Assembly: GCF_026410385.1 (NCBI RefSeq)
Contig: NZ_JAPMLT010000001.1
Span: forward strand, 310,001 to 374,000
Reading direction: 5' to 3'
Length of the DNA stretch: 64,000 bases
From: Tumebacillus lacus
Lineage (GTDB): Bacteria > Bacillota > Bacilli > Tumebacillales > Tumebacillaceae
Both the position numbers and the translations under genes were made by a program. The notes beneath the pieces are model-generated. The model searched no databases and was not told where the DNA came from. It saw only the letters and a list, made by a program, of their open reading frames with translations. Shown here one piece after another: positions 4,350-8,898 of this stretch. Every line of letters starts with the position of its first letter. Positions within the stretch are counted from its first letter, which is position 1.

Positions 4350-6500
4350 TTATGCGTTGACGCGGACTCCTGCAAACAAGTCGCGTCCGCTCGCCAGCAA
4401 CTGAGCGAACTCCTCGACAGGCAGCGGGCGGGAGAAGTAGTAGCCCTGCATCATGTCGCAGTTTTGGCACATCAGGAAGTGGAGCTGGGCTTCCGTCTCC
4501 ACCCCTTCGGCGACGACGCGCAGTTTGAGGCTTTGGGCGAGGGAGATGACCGCTTTGGCAATCGTCTCTTCTTCCTCTAATTCGCCGGTGATGTCCTTGA
4601 CGAAGGAGCGGTCGATCTTCAGCGAGTCGATCGGTAACTTTTTCAGATAGGACAGCGACGAGTAGCCGGTGCCAAAGTCGTCGATGGCGATGCGAATGCC
4701 CATCATCTGCAGGTCTCGGAGGGTGGAGATGACCTTTTCCGTATCTTGGATGATGATGCTCTCGGTGATCTCCAGTTCCAGCCACTCTGCGTCGAGGCCG
4801 GTGTCGGCGAGCGCCGCTTTGACCTGTTCGACGATGTTGCCGTACTGGAACTGGGAGACGGACAGGTTGACCGCCACGCATAGCGCGGGCAGGCCTTGAT
4901 CTTGCCACTGCTTGTTCTGGCGGCAGGCCTCGCGGAGCACCCATTCGCCAATCGGGCCGATCATGCCGATCTCCTCCGCCAGCGGAATGAAGACGTAGGG
5001 CGGGATCTGACCTTTCGTCGGATGTTCCCAGCGCACGAGCGCTTCCATGCCGACCATCTTGCCGGTGGCGAGGTCGACTTTGGGCTGGTAGTGCAAGATC
5101 AGTTCGCCGCGGTCGACCGCTTTGCGCAGCGCGTTTTCCATCTCGATGCGACCGGAGTTGTCCATGTCGTCGGTGTAGAAGCGGCAGCGGTTGCGACCGG
5201 ACTCTTTGGCGTGGGAGAGGGCGAGGTCGGCCTGTTGGAACAGCGTGTCCGGATCGATCTGCCGTGTCGCCGTCGAGATGCCGATGCTCGCGGAGATGAA
5301 CAGTTCATAGTCGTCGACGAGCATCGGCTGTTTGATCGACTGGATCAAGCGCTCGGCCAGTTGTTCGACGGTCAGGCTGTCGAACGGACCGGGCAGGAGG
5401 ACGGTAAACTCGTCGCCGCTGATCCGCGACACGAAGGCGCGAGGACCTGCGCAGTCCTTGATGCGCTTCGCCGCTTCGATCAACAGCAAGTCGCCGATGT
5501 GATGGCCGAGCGTGTCGTTGATGTTTTTGAAGCGGTCGAGGTTTACGAACAAGAGAGCCGGAAGCGCGTCTTGGTCGTCGCACGAGAGAGCTTCGGTCAA
5601 TCGCTCCTGGAACAACACGCGGTTGGGCAACTGAGTGAGCGTGTCGTAGTGAGCGAGAAAATGGAGCCGAGTCTCCGTCTGTTTGCGCGTGGTGATGTCG
5701 CGTTGGATCGAGACGAAGTAGCGCACGTTGCCCGCCTCGTCGAGCACGGGAGTCACCGTCAGCTCGCTGTCGTAGCGGGTGCCGTCTTTGCGTCGGGTCA
5801 GAACTTCGCCGCTCCAGGGGCTGCCGTTGTTGACCGCTGTGCGGATCTGGTGGAACGTCGCTTTGTCCTCCGGATTGTCATCGGGGACCAGCATGCGGTA
5901 GGTGGGCAGTTCCCGCGCTTCGTAACCGGTCAGTTCGGTGAAGGCCGGGTTGACCCATGTGATGTCCCCGTCGATGGTCACGATGGCGACCGCGTTCGGG
6001 GTCGCTTCCAGAGCCATGCTTTTTAATTGGAAATTCGCCGCCAACTGTTCGAGATCGAGGGCGTGCGAGAGAAATTTTGAAAGGTGCGTCATGATGCCTT
6101 GCTCATCTTGGGTGAAATCGTACGGTTCGCTGTTCAGCGCGCACAGCGTGCCAAACATCGTACCGTCGGCGAGCAGGATCGGCACGCCGAGATAGGAGCC
6201 GATATTTCCCGATTTGGTGATCGGGAGGTCTTTGGTAACGGGATGCTGGGAGGCGTCAGGGATGACCAGCGGCTCACGGCCGCCGAGGTAGATCATGCCT
6301 CAGTAAGACGACTCAAGCGGCAGACTGTCCGGGCGCAGCGGGCTGTTTTCCTCGCTGATCAACTTCAGCACGGTGAAAACTTCCTGGTTTGTATACGCGA
6401 TAAAAAACGTTTTTGCTCCGACCAGATCGCGCACCAGACTGAGAACGTTTTCCGCGATTTCATGAAAATGAAACGCGTTGCGCAGAATCGCACTTTGCAT
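4350..6500 (-). CDS. GAF-PAS-GGDEF-EAL protein interrupted by an in-frame TGA
   Basis: The reading frame 4350-6500 is continuous except for a TGA at 6300-6302. The upstream part (66 residues, starting at the ATG at 6500 behind AGGAGGTGA) is the first half of a GAF domain; the downstream 650 codons finish the GAF, then hold a PAS domain, a GGDEF domain with SGDEF in the active-site loop, and an EAL domain with EALVRWEHP and DDFGTGYSS. The domains suggest cyclic di-GMP synthesis and/or breakdown. The TGA lies after LESSY, where related GAF domains commonly have Cys. It could be a nonsense mutation, a sequencing error or a recoded codon. Translation could restart at the ATG at 6296, but no convincing ribosome binding site is seen and the GAF would be cut. 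Confidence 0.75.
6300..6302 (-). other. in-frame TGA inside the GAF domain
   Basis: The flanking codons read LESSY-TGA-GMIYLGG, and both sides match one GAF domain in the same frame. A small GC-rich hairpin can be drawn within 30 bases downstream, but such short stems are common by chance in this GC-rich DNA. Confidence 0.7.
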
Positions 6501-7092: not shown

Positions 7093-7103
7093 AGAAGAAA
7101 AAA

Positions 7104-7136
7104 ACGAGCGTGCCAGTGCGGCAGGCTCGTTTTTTA
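7104..7136. terminator. bidirectional intrinsic terminator
   Basis: Outer stem ACGAGC/GCTCGT, one mismatch, inner stem TGCC/GGCA and a 5-base loop, with A and T runs on either side. It separates the DUF6884-like gene from the convergent tusA-like gene. Confidence 0.85.
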
Positions 7137-7409
7137 GTCGGGAGCGGTGTGTTTGACGCGGATCGTGAAATAGAGGTCTTGCCGGTCACGGATCGGATCG
7201 CCGACCATTTCATAGCCGTGCTTGATGACTTCCTCCGGGACGCTGCGGAACGACTGCGGGCAATCGGCGATCACCTGCAGGACTTGGCCCGGATCCATGT
7301 TTTGCAGCGCATCCAGCGCATACATGATGGGAAACGGTCAAGGTTCGCCGCGGATGTCGAGGACGTAGTCGATGTCGAGGTTCTGGTTTTCGGTGAGATC
7401 GAGGTTCAT
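7134..7409 (-). CDS. TusA/YeeD-family sulfurtransferase with TGA at the catalytic Cys (selenoprotein candidate)
   Basis: The 91-codon frame begins MNLDLTENQNLDIDYVLDI, then RGEP-TGA-PFP, and continues to a normal TusA C-terminus. TusA/SirA/YedF proteins carry a CPxP motif whose Cys is the persulfide-carrying residue, and the TGA at 7338-7340 stands exactly at that Cys (codon 24). The ATG overlaps the yeeE stop codon by 4 bases (ATGA) and has AAAGGAGG upstream, so the frame is intact and coupled. Downstream of the TGA the sequence can form a hairpin (7293-7328). Either the TGA is read as selenocysteine, or the gene is a nonsense mutant. The N-terminal MNLDLTEN-type start and the partner gene are typical of the YeeE-YeeD thiosulfate pair; YedE/YedF relatives have been linked to selenium metabolism. 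Confidence 0.75.
7293..7328 (-). promoter_or_regulatory. candidate bacterial SECIS-like hairpin
   Basis: Counting from the base after the TGA, bases 10-16 pair with 38-45 (one bulged G), and GCGC at 19-22 pairs with GCGC at 28-31 around the loop TGGAT. The loop starts 22 bases after the TGA and has a G at its second position, which agrees with the general bacterial SECIS layout as I remember it. The fit is modest and could be chance. Confidence 0.3.
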
Positions 7410-8767
7410 GAGTAGACCTCCTTTGCGTTGGTTGCTTCGCCTTTTTCGCCGCCGCCAATCTTCAGACCGCGACCGTAGCGATACTGTTTCTCCCACCAGT
7501 GGGCGAGCGCGTACCAAATGCCGAGCATTGCGAGGGTGCCGATCAGCGCCCATGCTGCGCCCCAAGAACTGATGAGGTTGATCGGTTGCCAGCCTGCCAC
7601 GAGCAGAGCGGCGATGCCGAGGTGATCCCAGCCGTACGCGAGAAGTGTCGCGCCTAGTACGTTGCCGATGCCAACGACGAGAAACAGCACTTGGCCCTCC
7701 ATCATCCGGTACATCATCCCCGTCTCACAGCCGCCGGCGAGCACGATGCCAAGCCCGAAGAGCAACCCGCCCACGAGCGTGCCGGGAGCCGCGATTTTGA
7801 TGAGCGCGGTGGAGCCGGTGTAGAGAAAGAGGAAGGTGAGGACGACGCTGACCGCCATGCCGACGGCAATGGCTTTGGTCATCACTGCACGACCGCTGAT
7901 CCAGAGATCGCGGAAGGCGGAGGTAAAGCAGATCTGACCGCGCTCGATGAGCACGCCAAATCCAACGCCCGCAAGGAGAGCGACGCCGAGCATCGGTCTG
8001 GCCGTGGCGAAGTAGAAGACGGCGAGGGCTGTGAGGAGGACGGCGACGATGGTGCCGAGGATGGGCTGGATGCTGCGAGATTGAGGAGTGCGAGATTGAG
8101 GAGTGCGAGATTGGGAAGTGCAAGTTTGGGAAGTGCGGGAGTCTGTGTTGGGTTGGATGGTGGTGTGAGTGATGGCTGTGGTTGGGTGTGGGGTGCTATT
8201 TGTAAGGTTGGTCTTTGTTGTTCCATCGGTAGCGAATGCTTTTTTCGTCGCAGTCACCTTCTTCAAATTCGGCCTGCCGCGCCACCAGCGCGTGTTGACG
8301 ACCTTGACCCCGAGGTATGTACCGACCGCCGTGGCAAACATAAAGATCCACGCATGAAACGAAAACTGCGGCACCCCGGTGAAAAACGCGGCCAAATTGC
8401 ACCCCAAAGCCAACCGCGCCCCAAACCCGGCGATGATCCCGCCGATGAAGCCTTGCACCAGCCGCCGCTTCTGCTGCGGCATGCGGATCTTGAACGAACG
8501 ACTGAGCAACACCGTCATCAACGCCCCGCCCAGCATCCCGATCACGATCCAACCGTCGGTTCGGGTAAGCGGCGTGCCGTTCATACTGACGAGATTGAAA
8601 TACGCCCAACCGGACGTGTCGATCCCGACCGCGTGGAGCAGATGCCCGCCATACCGCGTAAACTCCCCGGTGACCGCCCAGACCGTTCCGGTGATGCCGA
8701 AGTAGAGAGCAGCCAGCACACCCGCGAGGATCATCGCGAGATAGGGGTTCCAGTATCGAGTGAACAT
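7406..8767 (-). CDS. yeeE: YeeE/YedE-family sulfur (thiosulfate/selenium) transporter
   Basis: A protein of 453 residues with two homologous membrane halves. Conserved Cys motifs typical of YeeE are present: LGCNLAAFF in the first half, RGQICFTSAF and GGCETGMMYR in the second. YeeE imports thiosulfate with YeeD as its cytoplasmic partner; the related YedE is proposed to move selenium compounds. The start is set at 8767 by AAAGGAGGTGA eight bases upstream rather than at codons further upstream. The two halves are joined by an unusually polar linker encoded by a 15-bp tandem repeat at 8074-8133. The stop overlaps the tusA-like start, implying one operon. Confidence 0.9.
   Translation of the reverse strand: MFTRYWNPYLAMILAGVLAALYFGITGTVWAVTGEFTRYGGHLLHAVGIDTSGWAYFNLVSMNGTPLTRTDGWIVIGMLGGALMTVLLSRSFKIRMPQQKRRLVQGFIGGIIAGFGARLALGCNLAAFFTGVPQFSFHAWIFMFATAVGTYLGVKVVNTRWWRGRPNLKKVTATKKAFATDGTTKTNLTNSTPHPTTAITHTTIQPNTDSRTSQTCTSQSRTPQSRTPQSRSIQPILGTIVAVLLTALAVFYFATARPMLGVALLAGVGFGVLIERGQICFTSAFRDLWISGRAVMTKAIAVGMAVSVVLTFLFLYTGSTALIKIAAPGTLVGGLLFGLGIVLAGGCETGMMYRMMEGQVLFLVVGIGNVLGATLLAYGWDHLGIAALLVAGWQPINLISSWGAAWALIGTLAMLGIWYALAHWWEKQYRYGRGLKIGGGEKGEATNAKEVYS
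8074..8133. repeat. yeeE: 15-bp tandem repeat (4 copies) inside yeeE
   Basis: Two identical units of TGCGAGATTGAGGAG are followed by two diverged units. In the protein this gives repeated SQTCT/SQSRT/PQSRT/PQSRS pentapeptides in the linker between the two membrane halves. The unit keeps the frame, so copy number could vary without breaking the gene. Confidence 0.85.
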
Positions 8768-8898
8768 GTGATGTGTCACCTCCTTTGACAAGACAGTATA
8801 TTGGGACGGGGAGGGAAATATGGCGGGGGAGTATGCTTTGGAATGAATGATTATATACTTAGTAATAACGCAGTTGTGATTTTCATCCAAAGAAATGA

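Follow-up and report, generated by a model that had tools for sequence, protein, structure and literature searches.

The stretch of Tumebacillus lacus DNA analysed here (64,000 nucleotides, further referred to as the window) contains a small gene, yedF, located directly downstream of a transporter gene and interrupted by a single in-frame TGA. The relevant features, all on the minus strand, are:

7406-8770, minus strand: yedE/fdhT, membrane transporter gene upstream of yedF (NF033796, Sulf_transp)
7134-7409, minus strand: yedF, predicted to encode a 91-aa selenocysteine-containing (UPxP) protein of the TusA fold; ATG at 7409-7407, TAA at 7136-7134
7338-7340, minus strand: in-frame TGA, read here as selenocysteine (Sec); residue 24, the CPxP cysteine of homologues
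7303-7324, minus strand: bSECIS-like hairpin with a lower stem, a bulged U at 7320, an upper stem (7319-7316/7310-7307) and the loop UGGAU (7315-7311)
7100-7133, minus strand: inverted repeat with a T-run resembling an intrinsic terminator, identified by reading the sequence and matched in part by computation
6500-4350, minus strand: GAF-PAS-GGDEF-EAL gene, 1 kb from yedF; ATG at 6500, in-frame TGA at 6302-6300

The yedF frame is open apart from the TGA at 7340-7338 and carries no other disabling change. With this TGA given as U, its translation is MNLDLTENQNLDIDYVLDIRGEPUPFPIMYALDALQNMDPGQVLQVIADCPQSFRSVPEEVIKHGYEMVGDPIRDRQDLYFTIRVKHTAPD. The ATG is preceded by the Shine-Dalgarno sequence AAAGGAGGTC and overlaps the TGA stop codon of yedE by 4 nt (ATGA). 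The two genes form one operon-like unit of which yedF is the last; the terminator-like hairpin and T-run adjoin the TAA of yedF, and nothing of the kind follows the internal TGA. The yedE gene itself has no in-frame TGA, and its ORF starts at 8890 if counted from a TTG codon. Positions 8085-8145 of the window, inside the yedE coding sequence, are a repetitive linker where GAGGAGTGCGAGATT repeats encode SRTPQSRTPQS.

The original prediction, made from the DNA letters of the window, considered yedF a selenoprotein candidate: a TusA/YeeD-like gene with a frame intact on both sides of a TGA placed exactly on the CPxP cysteine, and coupled to a YeeE/YedE transporter. The frame and the position of the TGA were confirmed, with the gene on the minus strand. 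The TusA fold was also retained (PF01206, 62.8 bits), but the YeeD identity was not. With C substituted for Sec, the protein scores 90.9 bits against the NCBIfam YedF model NF008242 (cut-off 79), whereas the models of YeeD/TsuB (NF041048, 26.6 bits, cut-off 147.5) and TusA (NF001423, 34.1 bits, cut-off 78) fall below their cut-offs, as does that of the two-domain selenium YedF (TIGR03527, 20.8 bits, cut-off 110), the protein having only 91 aa. The coupling to a transporter holds, given the 4-nt overlap; the partner is of the YedE/FdhT type (NCBIfam NF033796, 549 bits, cut-off 350) and not the thiosulfate-type YeeE, since the TsuA model stays below its cut-off. The closest solved structure by sequence is 1je3, an entry titled hypothetical 8.6 kDa protein, which we take to be E. 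coli YedF. The E. coli-type YedF (NF008242; 1je3) and the protein studied here share the single TusA domain, the CPxP site and the DCPQS and HGY signatures. They differ in the catalytic cysteine, for which the T. lacus gene would have Sec, specified by a UGA and the hairpin that follows it; at the DNA level CPxP becomes UPxP, that is, Sec replaces Cys and the site is kept. In Clostridia and other SelD-containing organisms, the two-domain YedF (TIGR03527) likewise has a TusA-like domain and a genomic link to SelD, but it also has a DsrE-like domain, which is absent here.

The four components of the Sec machinery that the original prediction had proposed to look for are present in the genome. 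SelA (C21:166382-167743, 614 bits) is directly followed by SelD (C21:167793-168722, 414 bits). The gene of tRNA-Sec with the anticodon UCA (C21:40839-40931, 65.8 bits) and selB (C25:59586-61466, 389 bits) are located apart from the selA-selD pair. In the SelD gene the codon of the catalytic residue is TGA, the only one in frame (AGUGCK, the UGCK motif); thus, a well-known selenoprotein is encoded by the same genome. Three genes match the formate dehydrogenase alpha model TIGR01591 (C1:272893, C1:126736 and C12:178501). As none of them contains an in-frame stop, they do not explain Sec decoding, and a Sec-containing formate dehydrogenase among these three was rejected as its reason.

YedF was then searched for in 250 relatives, which yielded 23 close loci (E < 1e-18). 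The CPxP codon is TGA in 15 of them (UPYP or UPFP) and TGC or TGT in the remaining eight. The 15 TGA genomes, the T. lacus genome included, span different genera and families of the class, and the YedF sequence downstream of the UGA is strongly conserved, the matches being about 47-74% identical. No Sec-YedF was found outside the class in the phylum sample, where eight further YedF-like genes all encode Cys. Apparent TGA codons in other TusA matches of genomes G004 and G012 lie 5' of the start codon, and these genes encode ordinary CPMP proteins. In the alignment at the CPxP site and in the tree, which comprises 31 sequences, every sequence has either Cys (16 genes) or TGA (15 genes). The tree requires three changes between Sec and Cys, at least two of which are forced by well-supported branches.

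These data leave practically no room for yedF being a pseudogene produced by a nonsense mutation or a sequencing error at the cysteine codon: an in-frame TGA is indeed the commonest mark of a broken gene, and the program-made ORF list shows yedF as two fragments, but the TGA recurs at this codon in 15 genomes of different genera, the downstream frame is conserved, there is no further disabling change and the genome has the Sec machinery, which excludes both causes. The original prediction had considered a chance nonsense hit on this codon unlikely, and the 14 other genomes bear this out while ruling out a misread base at 7338-7340. None of the three observations that it had named as evidence against itself (a genome lacking Sec machinery, a miscalled cysteine codon, other disabling changes) was made, and the selenoprotein candidate stands.

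The presence of Sec-YedF follows the capacity to decode Sec. SelA scores above its cut-off in all 15 Sec-YedF genomes, in two of the eight Cys-YedF genomes of the class, and in 61 of the 250 relatives overall; Fisher's test for Sec versus Cys genomes gives p = 2.8e-4, which is indicative only because related genomes are not independent. YedE adjoins YedF in all 23 loci examined. SelD is above the cut-off in 27 of the 30 YedF genomes tested, the exceptions being G054, an assembly of 280 contigs, and G162 and G569, which encode divergent Cys-YedFs. Given the two latter genomes, the link between YedF and selenium is strong, not absolute. A Cys-containing SelD was found in five Cys-YedF genomes without SelA and in no Sec-YedF genome. 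Eight genomes (G191, G217 and six others of the phylum) retain Cys-YedF beside Sec-SelD; hence, YedF does not depend on Sec for its function, and the exchange of Sec and Cys occurred within Sec-using lineages. Taken together, YedF tracks SelD, and the Sec residue occurs only where Sec can be made.

The hairpin after the TGA, with the loop 22 bases away, was noticed in the original prediction as compatible with a SECIS, and comparison with relatives strengthens this observation. In bacterial SECIS elements the loop is located 16-37 nt from the UGA and has a G among its first two bases; the E. coli fdhF element also contains a bulged U. In yedF the loop UGGAU begins 22 nt 3' of the UGA, and the bulge resembles that of fdhF. 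The four-pair stem is complete in 15 of 15 Sec genes, whereas all four pairs are found in none of the eight Cys genes of the class, and the loop consensus U-G-G-A-N lies 22 nt after the UGA in every Sec gene. The stem reads GCGC/GCGC except in two Tumebacillus genes, where it is ACGC/GCGU. This replacement of G-C by A-U is compensatory and affects one of the four core pairs only, in a hairpin that overlaps coding sequence. The RNAalifold consensus has eight pairs in all; an unpaired base, mostly U, bulges out below the upper stem. Codon usage is biased: within the hairpin, GCG encodes alanine in all 28 cases, compared to 8 of 37 in the rest of these genes, and CTG encodes the first leucine in 15 of 15 cases, compared to 29 of 89. 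Of 400 synonymous recodings of the same peptide, 98.5% give a weaker hairpin than the native yedF sequence, and 1.5% reach its stability. Therefore third codon positions of the Sec genes are under selection at the RNA level. The Rfam scan of the window at the gathering threshold yielded no match, so no curated family backs the hairpin.

Alternatively, a suppressor tRNA or near-cognate readthrough might place cysteine, tryptophan or some other residue at the UGA, which would equally preserve the downstream frame. We consider this very improbable. Among the tRNAs examined, tRNA-Sec is the only one with the anticodon UCA, those for Trp and Cys having CCA and GCA, respectively; the TGA form is restricted to SelA-bearing genomes and is accompanied by the SECIS-like hairpin. 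Furthermore, as originally predicted, TGA is an ordinary stop in the window (yedE itself ends in TGA), by which a global change of the code was also rejected. Based on the gene, its relatives and the Sec machinery, yedF very probably encodes a YedF in which the CPxP cysteine is replaced by selenocysteine. The UGA would be recoded by SelB and tRNA-Sec(UCA) together with the hairpin 22 nt downstream, and it is a well-supported inference that in the presence of selenium the full 91-aa YedF is made.

The UGA could also serve as a selenium-dependent switch: at low selenium, a 23-residue peptide and the terminated ribosome would regulate yedE-yedF, full-length YedF being secondary. Since yedF is the last gene of the unit and is coupled to yedE through ATGA, termination would respond to selenium, and such a switch is compatible with Sec insertion. 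As the main role of the UGA we find it rather improbable, as the residues encoded beyond the UGA show strong conservation, also in Cys forms having no UGA, which indicates that full-length YedF is the selected product.

As to the function of the Sec-containing YedF, several characterized systems are relevant. In the YeeE-YeeD (TsuA-TsuB) thiosulfate pair, likewise composed of a transporter and a small TusA-fold partner, the catalytic residue is the CPxP cysteine, which lies beneath the channel, receives thiosulfate from it and reacts with this substrate (PMC11073785). The substrate of the pair studied here is probably selenium. YedE and YedF have been tied to SelD by comparative genomics, with no mechanism given (PMC5322559; PMC2432076). 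In Campylobacter jejuni a similar pair, YedE/FdhT (FdhT) and a TusA-like accessory protein (FdhU), controls a selenium-dependent formate dehydrogenase, according to a title cited in PMC4178425 and to the citation in PMC5322559; the portion of the literature covered describes no Sec form of FdhU. The known Sec-containing YeeE/YedE transporter (GUxSG; PMC13188914) belongs to the same transporter-carrier system, but has Sec in the transporter, whereas here it would be in the soluble partner.

It is conceivable, although unlikely, that YedE-YedF takes up sulfur (thiosulfate) rather than selenium, and that Sec merely accelerates a sulfur carrier. Homology to YeeE-YeeD agrees with this possibility, as does the absence of SelD from two YedF genomes. 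On the other hand, the proteins pass the YedF and YedE/FdhT models and fail those of TsuB and TsuA, SelD accompanies YedF in 27 of 30 genomes including five without SelA, and the literature ties the pair to selenium (PMC5322559; PMC2432076; in PMC4178425, by a cited title).

The analogy with YeeE-YeeD and the selenium links thus favour delivery of selenium from YedE through YedF to SelD. In this relay, which we infer to be the most likely function and to which we give about an even chance, YedE would load a selenium species onto the Sec of YedF, where it would form a perselenide or selenosulfide, and YedF would hand it on towards the selenophosphate synthetase SelD, here a Sec enzyme. More tentatively, Sec-YedF may be a perselenide carrier: selenium would enter through YedE, form a Se-Se bond on the YedF selenol and pass to the Sec of SelD.

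The GAF-PAS-GGDEF-EAL gene is the second candidate in the window. Its ATG at 6500 is preceded by the Shine-Dalgarno sequence AGAGGAGGTGAG, and its only in-frame TGA falls on the GAF cysteine in the context SSY-U-GM. Two other genomes of the genus, which match T. permanentifrigoris DSM 18773 and T. flagellatus GST4 over 600 nt of the GAF gene with no mismatch, have TGA at the same codon, with frames open to the end and about 50-57% protein identity over the N-terminal part; homologues from other phyla have Cys at this position. A GC-rich hairpin is located at 6283-6269, and the two other Tumebacillus genes have a stem GCGGC/GCCGC with its loop 18-21 nt downstream of the TGA; the recoding test for this hairpin is weak when taken alone, as 6.8% of trials reach native stability. 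A second cysteine of the protein (GTLC, residue 120) is invariant in 10 of 10 aligned sequences. In the GAF domain as modelled by AlphaFold (pLDDT 89), a helix begins with the Sec, and Cys120 belongs to a strand. The structure matching this model best is that of the diguanylate cyclase 4zmu, where the residue aligned with Sec is Cys (SFCGH). The inventories PMC13188914, PMC9312934 and PMC12013277 list no GAF or GGDEF selenoprotein, and from its sequence the gene looks like a second unlisted one. A testable guess is a redox switch or sensor formed by Sec and Cys and acting on cyclic di-GMP turnover.

The May 2026 inventory, which covers 119 families of prokaryotic selenoproteins (PMC13188914), the 2022 list (PMC9312934) and the deep-Sep paper (PMC12013277) all lack a member of the TusA/SirA/YedF group; the Sec-containing YeeE/YedE transporter is included in the first two. 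Searches of openly accessible main texts returned no report of a Sec form of TusA, SirA or YedF. Sec-YedF therefore seems to be a selenoprotein family so far missing from these lists and adds to the selenoproteome inventory. Genes of this kind are split in two when TGA is taken as a stop, as in the standard reading.

The tie between YedF and selenium has so far consisted of gene neighbourhood and co-occurrence only, and the literature covered calls the function of YedF unknown or undefined; the selenium route to SelD is incompletely elucidated according to a May 2026 review. Sec at the reactive residue, switching with Cys along with the capacity to decode Sec, points to direct chemistry at this site. 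Sec-YedF offers a handle, through 75Se and Sec-to-Cys mutants, on the route of selenium to SelD. If it is indeed a perselenide carrier, the supply line for selenocysteine would itself be made of selenocysteine and would be self-reinforcing.
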